Assembly (NCBI GenBank): GCA_004195035.1
Contig: SGBD01000001.1
Span: forward strand, 186,001 to 250,000
Reading direction: 5' to 3'
DNA length: 64,000 nt
From: Candidatus Acidulodesulfobacterium ferriphilum
Lineage (GTDB): Bacteria > SZUA-79 > Acidulodesulfobacterales > Acidulodesulfobacteraceae
The position numbers and the translations under genes are program-made. The notes under the pieces are model-generated. The model saw only the letters and a list, made by a program, of their open reading frames with translations, ran no database searches and was not told the DNA's origin. Below are positions 45,900 to 56,068 of the stretch, in pieces; the first letter of the stretch is position 1, and each line of letters starts with the position of its first letter.

Positions 45900-45975
45900 G
45901 AGCCGCTAGCTCAGCTGGTAGAGCACCTGACTTTTAATCAGGTGGTCGTGGGTTCGACCCCCGCGCGGCTCACCA
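45900..45975 (+). tRNA. tRNA-Lys (anticodon TTT)
   Basis: The full cloverleaf is visible: acceptor GAGCCGC/GCGGCTC, D-arm GCTCAGCTGGTAGAGC, anticodon arm CCTGA-CTTTTAA-TCAGG, T-arm with TTCGACC, and encoded CCA. Its 3' half from 45931 is repeated exactly at 50357-50404, so the gene is an integration site whose 3' end was restored by the island. Confidence 0.97.
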
Positions 45976-45978
45976 CTA
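45931..45978. repeat. att-like repeat, left, island 1
   Basis: A 48-bp sequence from the tRNA-Lys anticodon loop through CCACTA, identical to 50357-50404. The identity breaks immediately on both sides. Confidence 0.92.
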
Positions 45979-46029
45979 AAATCAAGGCTTCACAGCATAT
46001 TAAAAATAATTAATTTTTTTGACTGTGCC

Positions 46030-46212
46030 CTATTTTGTGCAAGATTTTTCAAATTCCTGTATTCTTTCTTCAACTTCCTTAATAGTTTGATTGAAGCCCT
46101 TCCTGGAGATACTTGTAGTCGTAATGCTTCCATCAATTTTTTTTAGCTCGACGTATTGGTTGTGGAGCTCCTTATTTAATTCAAATTTTATTTTTTTATA
46201 AGATATGCAGTT
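46030..46212 (-). pseudogene. Gene fragment (C-terminal about 60 codons), unknown
   Basis: An open stretch without any start codon, bounded upstream by a stop. It encodes a charged, helical tail (ELHNQYVELKKIDGSI and NQTIKEVEERIQEFEKSC). It looks like the remaining end of a larger gene. No family is recognised. Confidence 0.35.
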
Positions 46213-46272
46213 TTATGTCTTTTGCTATGCAGTTTTGGTTAATTTAAATAAATGGATAGAGATATCTTACCT

Positions 46273-46373
46273 ATCTACAACAGTAGAAATTATTCAATAT
46301 TTTTAAACTCTTCTTTACATGAAGCAAGTTTTCTAACATCTACAACAGTTGTAATTTCCAAAAGTTGATGATA
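46273..46373 (-). CRISPR. Degraded type V-A (Cas12a-type) CRISPR mini-array
   Basis: On the - strand, 46308-46273 is a 36-base unit starting GTTTAAA and ending in the 19-base Cas12a crRNA handle AATTTCTACTGTTGTAGAT, identical to the handle used by Francisella Cas12a. A second, degenerate unit at 46373-46338 keeps ACTGTTGTAGAT at its 3' end but its stem is broken (17 of 20 handle-region bases match). Between them is a 29-base spacer (46309-46337), the length typical for Cas12a. No cas gene is in the window, and no third repeat was found. Confidence 0.78.
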
Positions 46374-46479
46374 CCGATAAAATAAAATTTATTTGTAAGT
46401 TTTTATTATATTTTGTATAGTTTCAATAACTTTTGCACCTTAAAGATAAATCCAAATAAAACATTACAATTAGAATTTT

Positions 46480-46614
46480 TTACCTATTAAGTAAGTTATT
46501 TTTAATGTGTCGCAATCTATGTTTTCCGTGACCATTAAGTCGGTTATCAGAAATCATTACCAACTCTTCCATCCCTTGCTTTGATGTTCTAACCCAGAAA
46601 GCTAATATCGTCAT
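46480..46614 (-). pseudogene. N-terminal fragment of an Ntn-hydrolase-like (proteasome-related) protein
   Basis: A 44-residue frame. Residues 1-30 (LAFWVRTSKQGMEELVMISD and NRLNG) resemble the start of small bacterial proteasome-like Ntn-hydrolase proteins, which usually begin with a similar strand and SDSRLxG. The continuation is lost, so it is a remnant. The family link is from memory and uncertain. Confidence 0.4.
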
Positions 46615-46677
46615 AATTTAATTTTATTAAACACAGAATAATAAATTTACGAACCTCAATAAGACATTATAATTTTT

Positions 46678-48092
46678 TTAGGATTTATGAGCTATAAGAT
46701 GCAAAAGATGAAGCAATAATGGATTAACGTTGGATTTTATTATAAAAATAAAATAAATTGCCAAGAGTATTAATTTGAATAAAAAGCGCGATAATGATGA
46801 TTTTACATGGTATTTTCTTTTCAAGAAGACATCAAAAATGCATGCTCCGATTAAAATTGTAATGGCCAAAATAATTTCATATATAAAAGGAGGCCATCCT
46901 GGCAAAAAAATATAAAGGAAAACATTTATAATTACGGGACCAAATATTAAAAGCGCTACCAACCAAGAAGGAATTTCCCCTATTTCTTTTCTGCCTTTCA
47001 AATTGAATACATTTAACAATTGGTATGAAAAAATAAAAACAATTACGATAAGATAAACTACAAAAGCAACAATAATTTCTGCAATTGTATGCCAATTTAT
47101 TTCTTTTAGTGAAATACTGTAAAACTGTTGAATAAATCTACTAAAAACCAAATATATTATGCCGAACCAGGAGAAACTGATAAAAAAGTTTTTAAACGAC
47201 TTGCTATTAATCCATTCTATTATTTTTGAATTAAAATTATTAATCTTACCAGATTCTACACTGCTCTTATCCCCATCAGACATCATTTCACCATCCCCCT
47301 TCTTTTTCCGATTTAATAACCCCTCAAAAAAATTAAATATCCTTTTACACCAAAAATCGTTCTTTTTTATAAACTTATTCAATTCTTTAACGCTTTTATT
47401 GCCTGATTCTATTATGGTTTTTGAAATTTCAAGCATCGACTCGTGAAACTCCAAGTTTTTCTTGGCTAAAGCATGAATATTAAAAAATCCGTAATAAGAG
47501 TAAAGGTTATTCAGAATATCTTTTTCCGATATATTCCAAAACTTAGAATTTATTTCATCATTACTCTTATTATTCTCTATCAAATCAAGCAATAAAGCAT
47601 TTGTCATCCCATAAAATCTGATAACCGGAACGGATGCGTTGTCCAGTAAACCAATGTCTTTTTTTAAAGAATTCTTAACATAAAAAATATCTTCGTTTAC
47701 AACAAAAGAAAACCGATAAATAGGAGTAGTGCCTAAGTATTTAATCGTGGATTTAAATTCCTCTGGCTCTCTTATATATTTTTCAAAATATCCATCTAAT
47801 TTTTCAACTGACATTTTTAATTCTTTAATTTTATCACTTAACGCTTCGATATATTTTCTTTTCGCAATAATATCCAGTAAAGCACTTATCTCGCCCTTAA
47901 AGGCATAAGCCGTGGCGAGTTTTTGCTTCACATGGCGATAATGTTCTATATAAAGAGATACTCCCCCAGTAATAAAAGCGTAAAAGCGCCGACGATTAAG
48001 CCGGCTACGCCTAATAGCGGTGCAAGCCATGCATCATGTCCGTTGATAATGGAAACATATAAATGGGCAGGAATATGTGTTGGGTTCGGCAT
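46678..48092 (-). pseudogene. Membrane protein gene with a one-base frameshift, function unknown
   Basis: The main frame (to 46678) encodes a coiled segment, then four to five hydrophobic helices in the last third (about residues 275-445 of the downstream frame). Its natural start appears to be ATG 48092 in another frame: that frame gives an extracytoplasmic tail and a membrane helix (WLAPLLGVAGLIVGAFTLLL) before running out. The two join at a run of five G (47963-47967), after which the sequence continues EHYRHVKQKLATAYAFKGEI. One base must be gained or lost. It could be a true lesion, a phase-variable tract or a sequence error. No family is recognised. Confidence 0.65.
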
Positions 48093-48278
48093 TTTGATAA
48101 TAAAATAAATTAATTAAATTAAAATTATCCTATTCTCAAAATATAATTTTTTATTACGGAAGTCAACCTGAAATTTAGACTAAAAAAATAAGGCTTGATG
48201 CCAATAAACACATAGCTTTGCGGATTTTTTGTCCCGATTCGGGACACTTTTGCCTGTTCTACCAGCAATTATGCTGGT

Positions 48279-48395
48279 TATAAAATTATTTTTTGGCTTA
48301 ACCAGGCATCCGACGATTTAAGAACGGCCCAGGATTATATAGAAACAAGGCATAAGAAATATTGTCCAACTGGAAATTGTGATTTAAATTCATAA
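48279..48395 (+). pseudogene. HEPN-domain-like fragment
   Basis: A frame without a start codon, encoding FWLNQASDDLRTAQDYIETR and a short tail. This resembles the first helix of HEPN proteins, which pair with MNT nucleotidyltransferases in toxin-antitoxin systems. Only this stretch remains. The rest of the 48093-48452 gap holds a 7-bp hairpin at 48230-48246 and nothing else that I recognise. Confidence 0.35.
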
Positions 48396-48452
48396 AAAAG
48401 GGCATATTATCTGCGTTTAATAGATTATTGAAATATGTTATAATTAATTATT

Positions 48453-48854
48453 ATGGAAAATATACAAAAATTTAGTTTTTTAAATAAGTTAGATAGCTTA
48501 TTGCCGGAATCGTTTGGAGATATTGCTAATATAAAACGTTTCCATAAATACCTTTTTGGCGAATTCATTTTAAACGAAAATTCTGTTAGAGAAGCCCAGG
48601 CTTTCATTAATATCCCTATAATCAAAGAGTCATTAGAGAGAGCGGCCACGTATTATTATGCTTTCAGATATATATTTTATGATAATAAATATTACGGTGG
48701 AAGACCCAATAAAGAGCTTGAAAAACTCGTCGAAAACGGGATTGTCAAACTTAAGACTCCGGGAACGGTTAAATTAAGAGAATTCAAGGAGAATAGAATC
48801 GTATGGACGAAAGTTCTTCACGAGATTCCATTGAAAGAGTTAAAAAACTCGTAG
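48453..48854 (+). CDS. Hypothetical protein paired with nucleotidyltransferase
   Basis: A 133-residue cytoplasmic protein with no recognised motif; charged and helical (ANIKRFHKYLFGEFILNE, RAATYYYAFRYIFYDNKYYG). Its 3' end overlaps the next gene by 52 bases, so the two are translated together. By position it would be the antitoxin or partner of the AbiEii-like nucleotidyltransferase that follows, but this is inference from gene order only. Confidence 0.65.
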   Translation: MENIQKFSFLNKLDSLLPESFGDIANIKRFHKYLFGEFILNENSVREAQAFINIPIIKESLERAATYYYAFRYIFYDNKYYGGRPNKELEKLVENGIVKLKTPGTVKLREFKENRIVWTKVLHEIPLKELKNS

Positions 48855-49396
48855 ATTTTTTGGCTAAAAATACCGACGAGAACATCGATATTATAGTGGT
48901 CGGTGGAACCGCTATGTCTTTTTATGGGGATTATAGAACTACAAGAGATATCGATGCTGAAATATTAAATTGCCCTGAGAATATTTATAAAACTTCATTG
49001 GAATATCTAAAGGAAAACAAAATTCAATTTAACATAGATGAAGATTTTGATGGTTGGGGTATGGTTCCAATGCCAGAAGGGTATAGAGACCGTGCTACCC
49101 AGATTTATAAAGAGGGCAATATCACTGTAAAAACATTAGAGCCGGTCGACTTTATCATTTCAAAGTTAAGAAGGGGAGCAGATATTGATATCGAGGATAC
49201 CGAGAAGATTGCGACCCGTTATAACATCGATGAGCAAACTCTAAGGGAAAGGGTATCTAAGATAAACTTTATAAACACTGAAGAAACCTTTTGGTTTAAG
49301 CAGAGACTTGAAAGATTTATTGATGAAAAAGTATTGCAACGAGATAGAGAAACACCTGACCAGAAAAACACCCCGGATACGGATATCGATTTTTAA
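48803..49396 (+). CDS. Nucleotidyltransferase, AbiEii/DUF6036-like
   Basis: A 197-residue protein of the polymerase-beta nucleotidyltransferase fold: IIVVGGTAMSFYGDYRTTRDIDAEIL (residues about 30-55) has the GG and D-x-D catalytic motif. This N-terminal layout is that of AbiEii-type toxins and DUF6036 proteins; LEPVDFIISKLRRGADIDIED is a typical later segment. It is likely one half of a toxin-antitoxin or abortive-infection pair. The start lies inside the upstream gene. Confidence 0.82.
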   Translation: MDESSSRDSIERVKKLVDFLAKNTDENIDIIVVGGTAMSFYGDYRTTRDIDAEILNCPENIYKTSLEYLKENKIQFNIDEDFDGWGMVPMPEGYRDRATQIYKEGNITVKTLEPVDFIISKLRRGADIDIEDTEKIATRYNIDEQTLRERVSKINFINTEETFWFKQRLERFIDEKVLQRDRETPDQKNTPDTDIDF

Positions 49397-49695
49397 ATTA
49401 TTCAAACCGACATTTTAATTTTATGGTCAGAATGCCCATCATGCGCACAAAAACGCGCCACGATAAAAAATGAGACGGAGTTTCTAACTGGTTAATGGAA
49501 ACTACCTAAATGATATTTAACCGGCCTTAAAAAGCAAATGCGGCGGTCTTTTCTCGGCAAAAAGGCAAAAATTCCATGTTTTTGTATATTTGAAGAATTT
49601 ATAAAAATTATATCCGTAAAATTTCCTCGAGGGAATTTAAAAGTTTGTGGTATAATATTTTATACAGAGGCAAAAAACATAAGATAAATAAAAAG

Positions 49696-49911
49696 ATGAA
49701 AACCAACACAATTACTATAAGCGGCGAAAGATATGAAGCTATCGTGAAAATAGCTGAAACCAAAGGAACTTCTTTGTCCATTGTGGTCGAGGAATTATTA
49801 AATAAGGCGATTGAACAGGAAGAAGACTCCAGGTTATTAAATATCGTCAAAAAAAGAAAGAAAGAAAACGAATCCTGCGCAACAATATCCCACGAAGAAG
49901 CCTGGAGATAA
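49696..49911 (+). CDS. RHH-type antitoxin
   Basis: A 71-residue protein from ATG 49696 (an upstream in-frame ATG at 49645 lies in the likely promoter). The start TNTITISGERYEAIVKIAE and the following VVEELLNKAIEQEE resemble ribbon-helix-helix antitoxins that bind DNA and neutralise a RelE-type toxin. The stop is one base before the toxin start. Confidence 0.7.
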   Translation: MKTNTITISGERYEAIVKIAETKGTSLSIVVEELLNKAIEQEEDSRLLNIVKKRKKENESCATISHEEAWR

Positions 49912-49912
49912 T

Positions 49913-50182
49913 TTGTTTACGCTAAGATATTATCCCGCCGTAAAAAAAGACATTAAAGAATTAGATAACCGGCACAGAGATAAAATCAAAAAAGCAATAG
50001 AAGAAAAACTACAGGTTTCGCCGCAAAGCTCCGGCATCCCGCTTAAAGGCGATTTATCGAATTGCTATAAATTAAGAGTGGGCGATTACAGGGTCATTTA
50101 CGAGATTCAAGAAAATGAAGTTACGATACTGTGCATAAAACACAGAAAAGACGTTTATAAAACTGCCGTTAAAAGAATATAG
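49913..50182 (+). CDS. RelE/ParE-family toxin
   Basis: An 89-residue protein from TTG 49913, with GGAG five bases upstream. YYPAVKKDIKELDNRHRDKIKKAIEEKL, then PLKGDLSNCYKLRVGDYRVIYEI and CIKHRKDVYKTAV are the RelE-like mRNA-interferase fold, with the basic residues of the active site. It is coupled to the antitoxin gene upstream. The pair sits just inside the right repeat of island 1. Confidence 0.88.
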   Translation: MFTLRYYPAVKKDIKELDNRHRDKIKKAIEEKLQVSPQSSGIPLKGDLSNCYKLRVGDYRVIYEIQENEVTILCIKHRKDVYKTAVKRI

Positions 50183-50356
50183 TCCGAAATTTTTCCCCGT
50201 GCGTTAATTTAATCGCACTGCAACGATTTTGCAACGCTCCACGCAAAAAAACGGCAAAATCGGAGTGATTACGCGGAATTGCCGGAAAGCGGTAAAACCT
50301 TTTATTATCTGCAAAAACAGGCGGAAAGTCGGTTTGTTAATTTTACTTGAATTAGC

Positions 50357-50404
50357 CTTTTAATCAGGTGGTCGTGGGTTCGACCCCCGCGCGGCTCACC
50401 ACTA
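50357..50404. repeat. att-like repeat, right, island 1 (tRNA-Lys 3' half)
   Basis: Identical to 45931-45978 over 48 bases. It contains only the 3' half of the tRNA, so it is not a functional tRNA gene. Confidence 0.92.
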
Positions 50405-50406
50405 TT

Positions 50407-50970
50407 TTAAACATTTTTAAGATATTCTGTTTTTTGAATATCTCCTTGCGGTAAAGAATCGGTAAAGTTTTTTTCAAAATCCTTATTATCTAATACTTTC
50501 ACAGCATTTTGTATATGCGCCGAAGCTAAATGACTGTATCTTAAGGTCATAGTAATTGATTTATGTCCTAACAACTCCTTAACGGTCGTTAAATCTACCC
50601 CGCCCATAACAAGCCTGCTTGCGAACGTATGCCTTAAGTCGTGAAAGTGAAAGTCTAAGATGTGCGATTTTCTAAGCACCGATGTAAGCCCTCTTTTAAA
50701 ATCATAATAAGGCTTTAGTGTTTTAGGATTTAAAAGACATAATCGTATTTTATATGCCTTGCAATGCTCGGTAAAGCGTTATACAACATCTGGTTTATCG
50801 GAATTTCCCGCCGTTCGCCGTTCTTCGTTTTATCAAGTAAGGTTAACCGGTTCCTTAATCCCTGTCCCAGGTAAGTTTAAGTATCTCCGATTTTCTCATT
50901 CCTGTATTTAAAGCAGTTATCACGATAGGCTTTAATAAGGCTCGCAATGCGATATAAGCCTTTCTGTTTA
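50407..50970 (-). pseudogene. Tyrosine recombinase (integrase), truncated and frameshifted
   Basis: Reading the - strand from about 50970, three frames in turn give integrase core segments: KPIVITALNTGMRKSEILKL (first catalytic Arg), then NGERREIPINQMLYNALPSI, then LDFHFHDLRHTFASRLVMGG and ELLGHKSITMTLRYSHL with the His-x-x-Arg, His and nucleophilic Tyr. At least two frameshifts separate them and the N-terminal half is missing. The gene lies between the right repeat of island 1 and the left repeat of island 2, so its owner is unclear. Confidence 0.85.
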
Positions 50971-54389: not shown

Positions 54390-55244
54390 ATGGAAAATAC
54401 GGCTAAAAAAAATATTGAATATTATCTTAACCAAGTTTACCTTGAAGATATAATGGTTCTTCTAAAAAAACTTCCGGCTCACAGCGTCGATATGATTTAT
54501 GGAGACCCGGATTACAATGTTGGAATAAAATACGGCGATAAAACCTATACCAAAAACTTTGACGAATATATTGAATGGTATATTAAATTAGCCGCCGAAT
54601 CGTTAAGAGTTTTAAAGGACACAGGAAATATGTTTTTAATCAACTATCCCAAACAAAACGCACATGTCAGGGCAAAATTCTTAGATAAGGCATGCCATGA
54701 AGTTTATGATTATGTTTGGGTGTACAATACAAATGTGGGGCATACCCCGAAACGATTTACCACAGCCCACAGAAGCATATTGCATTGCATAAAAACTAAA
54801 AATAACAAATTTTATAAAGATAATGTAGCCGTTCCTTATAAAAATCCTACGGATAAAAGAATAATGCAAAATATGGCAAACGGTTCAAAAGGAAGGATGC
54901 CTTACGATTGGTTTTATTATGATTTAGTTAAAAACGTCAGCAAAGAGAAAACGTTTCACGCCTGCCAGATACCGCAAAAGCTCTCAGAAATGTTGCTCAA
55001 GTCCTGTACGATGCCTGGAGATATTGTTTTAATATTATTTGGAGGGAGCGGCTCGGAAATAGAAATTTGCAAAACACTAAATAGACAATTTATTTCTTCC
55101 GAAATTGACGAGAAATATTATAATATGATTCTTGACCGGTTAAATAACGGTAAAATTGACGAAAAATATCGGCTAAATATAAATAACCGCGAAATTCAAA
55201 GGGGAATATCTACTATTTTGCGTCAACCCGATTTGTTAAAATAA
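54390..55244 (+). CDS. DNA methyltransferase (amino-type, beta-class order)
   Basis: A 284-residue restriction-modification methylase. The catalytic motif IV is near residue 38-42 as GDPDY (usual form DPPY or SPPY; the middle Pro is replaced by Asp), and the SAM-binding motif I equivalent LFGGSGSE is near residue 215, the order of beta-class N6-adenine or N4-cytosine enzymes. The region between carries target-recognition sequence. It lies convergent with the neighbouring candidate restriction gene (14-base gap). Recognition sequence unknown. Confidence 0.88.
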   Translation: MENTAKKNIEYYLNQVYLEDIMVLLKKLPAHSVDMIYGDPDYNVGIKYGDKTYTKNFDEYIEWYIKLAAESLRVLKDTGNMFLINYPKQNAHVRAKFLDKACHEVYDYVWVYNTNVGHTPKRFTTAHRSILHCIKTKNNKFYKDNVAVPYKNPTDKRIMQNMANGSKGRMPYDWFYYDLVKNVSKEKTFHACQIPQKLSEMLLKSCTMPGDIVLILFGGSGSEIEICKTLNRQFISSEIDEKYYNMILDRLNNGKIDEKYRLNINNREIQRGISTILRQPDLLK

Positions 55245-55258
55245 TATTTAGTATATCG

Positions 55259-56068
55259 TTAAATATATAAATATGGGGTTAGCCATTCCAATATTTCGCT
55301 TCGTTTCGGAACGCAAATTCCTTTTGAATTTATGAGCCTTTGTATTATATCGAGAATATTATTATGGTTTATATTTTTAGGATTATCTTTTTTAGCTAAG
55401 ACATGTTCGACAAAATCGAAAGCTAAACATGGAATTGCTATGCAACTTAATAAAGTATTTATTCTGCCGATATTAAAGCGCGCATTATTATTAAAATCCG
55501 GCTTATTTGAAATCATATGATATTTATCGTCTTCATTCCAACCTAAAATATCTAAAAAATTTAAAAAACCTAATAAACCATAAGAACCAAAGCAATCCTT
55601 GCAATTCTTTTCTATATCTTCAATGCAATTTAAAATTTGACGGTTGGGCGCATATCTTAATTTTCCGCCTTCCATTTCCTTAAAATCAAGCATATAAGCC
55701 AATCGATATATTAACGTAAGTAATTTCTTGAATTGACCTTTATTCGTCAAAGATACCTTTAAAATAATATCAAATATTTCGTTAAAACTTAATAAGCCGA
55801 CGCCGCTAACCATAGGGGTCATGTCATAAAGATTAGGATTTTCGGGACGAAAGACCTCTTTTCCAGGTTTAAGGAAATATACTTCGATATTATTTGGTAA
55901 AACACTGATAACATGTTCTTGAGGGTTTTCCCGGGTTCCACTTTTAAAAGAAATCGCTTCGTTAAGTCTTTTGAGTCTTTTTTCTTTAAGTTGCGATTTG
56001 TTTTCCCTGTCTAACCGGCTTCGACCCGTTTGCAATTTTGTTTTTAAAACATTTTCGCAATCATTCAT
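55259..56068 (-). CDS. Candidate restriction endonuclease partner
   Basis: A 269-residue protein I do not recognise by sequence. It lies 14 bases from the methyltransferase stop, convergently, within the same island and shares its operator-like motif, so a restriction enzyme is the best guess. Visible features: a basic start, IEVYFLKPGKEVFRP near residue 63 (an acidic-x-x-x-x-Lys pattern that could hold metal ligands), and helical body. No PD-(D/E)xK signature is certain. Confidence 0.6.
   Translation of the reverse strand: MNDCENVLKTKLQTGRSRLDRENKSQLKEKRLKRLNEAISFKSGTRENPQEHVISVLPNNIEVYFLKPGKEVFRPENPNLYDMTPMVSGVGLLSFNEIFDIILKVSLTNKGQFKKLLTLIYRLAYMLDFKEMEGGKLRYAPNRQILNCIEDIEKNCKDCFGSYGLLGFLNFLDILGWNEDDKYHMISNKPDFNNNARFNIGRINTLLSCIAIPCLAFDFVEHVLAKKDNPKNINHNNILDIIQRLINSKGICVPKRSEILEWLTPYLYI

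Follow-up and report, generated by a model that had tools for sequence, protein, structure and literature searches.

The 64-kb window analysed here (64,000 nucleotides of a contig of Candidatus Acidulodesulfobacterium ferriphilum) harbours, on an island integrated at a tRNA-Lys gene, a short CRISPR array of type V-A form. This array is probably a worn copy of an orphan mini-array that is carried as cargo by tRNA-integrating elements and belongs to an anti-cas12a lineage, and an array directed against cas12a is the most likely ancestor of the copy in the window. The CRISPR observation as such is confirmed by the anatomy of the locus, which on the - strand from 46373 to 46203 follows the order R1 - S1 - R2 - S2 - truncated R3 and resembles the end of a type V-A array (Table 1). 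The Cas12a handle AATTTCTACTGTTGTAGAT occurs without mismatch at 46291-46273 and folds into the canonical 5-bp stem with a 4-nt loop (-4.8 kcal/mol), which bears out the 36-base repeat that an earlier, sequence-only reading had placed at 46308-46273. A variant of the handle with two substitutions, AATTACAACTGTTGTAGAT, lies 65 nt upstream of it (46356-46338), a spacing equal to one 36-nt repeat plus one 29-nt spacer; its stem is shifted (-1.1 kcal/mol) and the canonical stem-loop is not formed, in keeping with the 29-base spacer and second, decayed repeat described before. That reading had overlooked the third, truncated repeat (46217-46203) and the second guide between R2 and R3. With repeats ending in a handle, exact in R2 and twice substituted in R1, the 65-nt spacing, two guides and a truncated R3, the locus has the makings of a type V-A array. 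About 20 extra nucleotides between S2 and R3 resemble, as read from the alignment, a partial duplication of R3. At up to three mismatches the handle matches the window twice, both times in the array, where 0.24 matches are expected by chance.

Table 1. Coordinates of the mini-array and of the surrounding tRNA-Lys locus, in positions of the window
Feature	Position	Strand	Remarks
tRNA-Lys(TTT) gene	45900-45975		its 3' part lies in att copy 1
att copy 1, 3' part of tRNA-Lys(TTT) gene plus 3 nt	45931..45978	+	48/48 identical to 50357-50404
Integrated island with mini-array, 4426 bp including one att copy	45979..50404		48-bp direct repeats at ends
Remnant of 66-aa gene, tRNA-proximal end of the element family	46042..46200	-	start codon lost
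R3, truncated terminal repeat without handle, CATAAAACTGCATAT	46203..46217	-	common to G016; similar to truncated last repeat of G025
S2, second guide, AGGTAAGATATC...TTTAAATTAA	46239..46272	-	apparently homologous to G016 S2, diverged
R2, repeat, 36 nt, GTTTAAAAATATTGAATAATTTCTACTGTTGTAGAT	46273..46308	-	exact Cas12a handle; same handle in the Cas12a arrays of G017 and G025
S1, spacer, 29 nt, GTTAGAAAACTTGCTTCATGTAAAGAAGA	46309..46337	-	no target found
R1, decayed repeat	46338..46373	-	two handle substitutions break the stem; 5' half unrecognisable
att copy 2	50357..50404	+	identical 48-bp direct repeat

The array had been assigned to a mobile island at a tRNA, a view upheld by the identical 48-bp tRNA-Lys copies at the island ends and by the sister genome G010, from which the island is absent. 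There, L103 12227-7955 matches up to window position 45978 and L103 8002-7434 matches from 50357; since both flanks are joined with a single att copy, the island is a segment that was either acquired or lost. The gene remnant between the array and the tRNA shares 63% identity over 54 aa with a 66-aa protein of the related genome G025, for which no Pfam match was obtained.

The remaining cargo of the island includes a 450-aa protein adjoining the mini-array (46678-48030) that has C-terminal hydrophobic segments and no match in Pfam, NCBIfam or PADLOC. Two pairs of genes are candidates for toxin-antitoxin or abortive-infection modules, namely a DUF6036 nucleotidyltransferase with a 133-aa neighbour (48453-49396) and a ParE-type toxin with a DUF6290 partner (49645-50182). 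A defence library gave no match to the three island proteins at 46678-48030, 48453-48854 and 48803-49396. Just outside the island, at 50407-50679, lies the C-terminal fragment of a tyrosine integrase whose full 361-aa gene is present in G010 (L103 6867-7952); the fragment is left over from a second, tandem island at tRNA-Lys. Further along (54390-56068), a type II DNA methyltransferase stands beside a 269-aa protein without a PADLOC match, possibly a restriction-modification pair.

The sequence-only reading had noted that no cas gene lies near the array, and for Cas12a this holds across the whole assembly, which is 97% complete and in which Cas12a was detected neither by HMM nor by protein search; the same HMM does detect Cas12a in the relatives G017 and G025. 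A search of the rest of the genome for cas12a and matching arrays, as had been proposed, likewise returned nothing, the handles of R1 and R2 being the sole matches at up to two mismatches genome-wide (reversed control: 0). The array is therefore an orphan without cognate cas genes in its genome, and what would make up a type V-A CRISPR-Cas system is lacking, as there is neither cas12a in the locus or genome nor a leader before the first repeat; the leader common to G025 and G017 has no counterpart upstream of R1. A promoter-like site was not seen on the - strand within the window, and an Rfam scan reported only tRNAs above threshold. Further cas12a alleles were sought among close relatives, where only G025 and G017 have one, plus one distant match at 28%, and in IMG/VR, where none was found. 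In G009, a stretch of about 95 aa interrupted by stops matched weakly (E=0.003, 13.9 bits), which was taken as noise.

The comparison with related elements drew on 30 genomes for the whole phylum, all of one family. In G025, the order at a tRNA-Arg gene is membrane gene - cas12a - array - 66-aa gene - tRNA, with a Cas12a of 1180 aa (TIGR04330, 1152 bits) on an element that also carries a TrwC-type relaxase and ParA. In G028, the membrane gene, the 66-aa gene and the tRNA follow each other and the slot is empty. In G016, at tRNA-Lys, what is left of the membrane gene is followed by a two-spacer mini-array and then by remains of the 66-aa gene, and cas12a is detectable neither in this slot nor elsewhere in the genome; mini-array and 66-aa gene remnant likewise stand at tRNA-Lys in the window. 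The stretch with the truncated R3 is identical at 18/20 positions between the window and G016, and the last repeat of the G025 array, also truncated, resembles it. Given the same tRNA-Lys slot, the 66-aa gene remnant and the near-identical R3 stretch, the arrays of the window and G016 are, on this comparison, orthologous in position and form, and the form is common to two genera; these two are the only mini-arrays known. Conservation is 91% in the repeats and 81% in flanking DNA (p=0.12), a difference that is not significant and gives no support to selection on the handles over the flanking DNA. Common ancestry of the two arrays, S2 included, finds support in these alignments. For S2 itself it is supported but not proven: the match between the two guides reaches p of about 0.001 against random genomic segments and 0.006 against shuffles, and rests largely on an identical AT-rich tail of 10 nt. 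Homology of the window S1 to the G016 S1 was unsupported (p 0.09-0.23).

Two further handle matches were set aside. In G012 there are further mismatches in the handle and no second repeat, which was taken as chance, and the match in G004 does not mark a mini-array, as it lies in a spacer of a different CRISPR array. This array (L054 1000-2000, G004:C7) has 30-nt repeats CTTTTAACCCCACATATATTAAATTAATAC and adjacent spacers against the same element family, one of which matches the membrane-protein gene of the family (91% over 34 nt to L073), and the next starts with the Cas12a handle CTACTGTTGTAGAT.

The connection to cas12a comes from the guides of G016. TTTV is the established PAM of Cas12a and may not be that of the G025 and G017 enzymes; guides were anchored at the TTTV sites of the cas12a genes of these two genomes and p was determined against shuffles. 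The G016 S1, TTTACGTCCCCAACCTGCCAAAAGACT, matches 25 nt on the antisense strand of the G017 cas12a, immediately behind TTTA, in an alignment that contains a single mismatch and a single inserted base. For the G016 S2, AGTTTAATGTTCCTATAACTTTAAATTAA, the match is on the sense strand, immediately behind TTTC and at codons that are the same in the cas12a genes of G017 and G025; the guide codes for FNVPITLN, and all its differences from cas12a in that stretch are synonymous. The targets lie in the coding region, at gene positions of about 2000 (antisense) and 2300, over about 24 nt. In the anchored test, S1 reached p<0.0005 and S2 p=0.0025, and the 13 spacers of complete arrays and both window guides were unremarkable (lowest other p 0.038). 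Judged by these alignments, both G016 guides derive from a cas12a gene, and the G016 array has the spacers of an anti-cas array, matching cas12a beside a TTTA and a TTTC PAM. Identity to the two known alleles is 15-16/20, with a 1-nt insertion in S1, so that cutting of these alleles by the G016 guides is uncertain; as the fit is imperfect, the true target allele is presumably unsampled.

The guides of the window behave differently from those of G016. The anchored test on the G017 and G025 genes gave no cas12a match for S1 or S2 (p>0.9), and the cas12a matches with a PAM that would mark an anti-cas array are thus lacking in the window guides themselves. Protospacers were found in none of the 30 phylum genomes at up to three mismatches, with or without a PAM, a search that targets as diverged as those of G016 would escape. 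Exact 18-20-mers had no match in IMG/VR, and the search of plasmids and phages suggested by the sequence-only reading produced chance-level matches only. Within the window, PAM-plus-seed matches of the guides were not in excess of chance. In one frame S1 reads LENLL, like the G025 Cas12a, but this candidate was rejected (p=0.5, no PAM). Since the window guides lack the cas12a match that their G016 orthologue has, the window copy appears to be a decayed relative rather than a working member of the lineage.

The array had earlier been described as either a relic or a cargo mini-array that uses the Cas12a of a rival. For the lineage, the second option gains support from the G016 guides and their TTTV PAMs; for the window copy a decayed remnant is now likelier, because no match to the guides was found, one of the two handles is damaged and the adjacent gene lacks its start codon. 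Within this family, a complete Cas12a system or else a mini-array lacking cas12a, as in the window and G016, occupies the slot beside the tRNA. In the proposed mechanism, the short RNA of the ancestral mini-array would have had no nuclease of its own, Cas12a being brought in by a rival element. We infer that the incoming Cas12a would process the RNA and load the guides by their handles, and that the guides would then direct the loaded enzyme at the very gene that encodes it, with the result that the incoming element is cut or loses its Cas12a. Also inferred are that the array is transcribed, that a foreign Cas12a processes the RNA and cuts cas12a, and that the element benefits. The window copy has probably lost the ability to target, because R1 is broken and the guides match nothing, and R2 could possibly still occupy an incoming Cas12a as a decoy, if its RNA is made. 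More broadly, and tentatively, elements may compete through this one slot, some carrying Cas12a with an array and others a nuclease-free mini-array of 'suicide guides' that aims the Cas12a of the rival at cas12a; the window would then hold one such mini-array in another genus, its perfect handle perhaps serving as a decoy.

The main rival explanation, possible though rather unlikely, is that the mini-array is the plain relic of a lost Cas12a locus. A complete locus would have occupied the slot as in G025, cas12a and the leader would have been deleted, and the tRNA-proximal end of the array would now be decaying; in G016, the spacers derived from cas12a would then be no weapon but the product of self-targeting acquisition, which favoured the loss of cas12a. 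Such a history would account for G025, where Cas12a and an array fill this slot in the same orientation and the last repeat is similarly truncated, for the damage to R1, the 66-aa gene and the neighbouring integrase of the island, and for window guides without a target. It fits less well with the lack of any cas12a trace in the window genome or in G016, with the lack of leader similarity with a mini-array form common to two genera, and with cas12a matches in 2/2 spacers of G016 versus 0/13 spacers of complete arrays.

Less probable still is an RNA anti-CRISPR (Racr), in which a handle-bearing RNA titrates the incoming Cas12a and the sequence of the guide is irrelevant. Solitary type V-A repeats on mobile elements do inhibit Cas12a, as reported for the solitary repeat units RacrVA1-3 (PMC10651486), and the window array likewise has a Cas12a handle, lies on a mobile element and is not accompanied by cas genes. 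The handle of R2 is perfect though the guides match nothing, and a single handle without an array was found in 8/8 IMG/VR contigs (L084-L091, all matched by AATTTCTACTNTTGTAGATAG) over the stretch examined. However, the array of the window is not a single solitary repeat: it comprises two to three repeats at array-like spacing with spacers and a truncated end repeat, is orthologous to an array with cas12a-matching guides, which titration would not need, and lacks a promoter-like site on its strand.

A regulatory RNA of the CreA/CreR kind, which would guide Cas12a to repress a promoter, is very unlikely. Such RNAs have been described for type V-A (PMC12737573), and a degenerate first repeat with a single short guide would suit one, but cas12a is absent in cis and from the genome. 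A partial guide match to a toxin or cas promoter was not found, the PAM-plus-seed matches being at chance level in the window and the rest of the genome holding none at up to three mismatches over longer stretches, and the G016 guides match the coding region of cas12a and not its promoter. That the repeats are chance palindromes and no CRISPR at all can be dismissed, because, even if a handle with two mismatches is weak evidence by itself and a handle-like match inside a coding gene of G020 was taken as chance, an exact handle with a second one at array spacing and the synteny with the orthologous G016 array and with the Cas12a locus that fills this slot in G025 refute it.

The anti-cas12a reading has its closest known parallel in Escherichia coli, where incoming plasmids with the cognate cas genes are subject to interference by orphan type I-F arrays that have anti-cas spacers (Almendros et al., 2016, as described in PMC8616872). 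In both cases the array is an orphan, the cognate Cas is absent and spacers, here those of the G016 sister copy, match genes of the cognate system. Unlike the E. coli arrays, the present one is of type V-A and has only two spacers; it sits on a mobile element integrated at a tRNA, in a slot where related elements have Cas12a, and an anti-cas guide can no longer be recognised in the window copy. From the complete Cas12a arrays of G025 and G017, with which it shares 36-nt repeats, the same handle and a truncated last repeat (and, in the case of G025, orientation and slot), it differs by the lack of cas12a and leader and by the decay of R1 and the spacers. Short orphan arrays on plasmids have been proposed to be relics or to use Cas proteins in trans (PMC9071438); here, in contrast, a sister copy reveals what its guides match, namely the cas12a gene. 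If the G016 reading is true, anti-cas orphan arrays would be known not only in type I-F of E. coli but also in type V-A, on mobile elements. With a single-protein effector the trick would be minimal, since no more than two repeats and two guides would be needed to disarm a rival. Since a sister element holds Cas12a in the same slot, a single site would allow weapon and counter-weapon to be compared. The window copy would be an example of such an array in decay and cautions that not every lone Cas12a handle is functional.

Handles outside arrays were also observed next to start codons. In G023 (L082 1541-1559) and G013 (L083 2972-2990), an exact Cas12a handle lies 5 nt before the ATG of a hicA toxin gene and adjoins the remnant of a gene from this element family; possible explanations are another remnant of the slot, a Cas12a-sensitive leader or an operator for HicB. 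Among the IMG/VR contigs, L086 and L087 have an ATG within about 20 nt after the handle.
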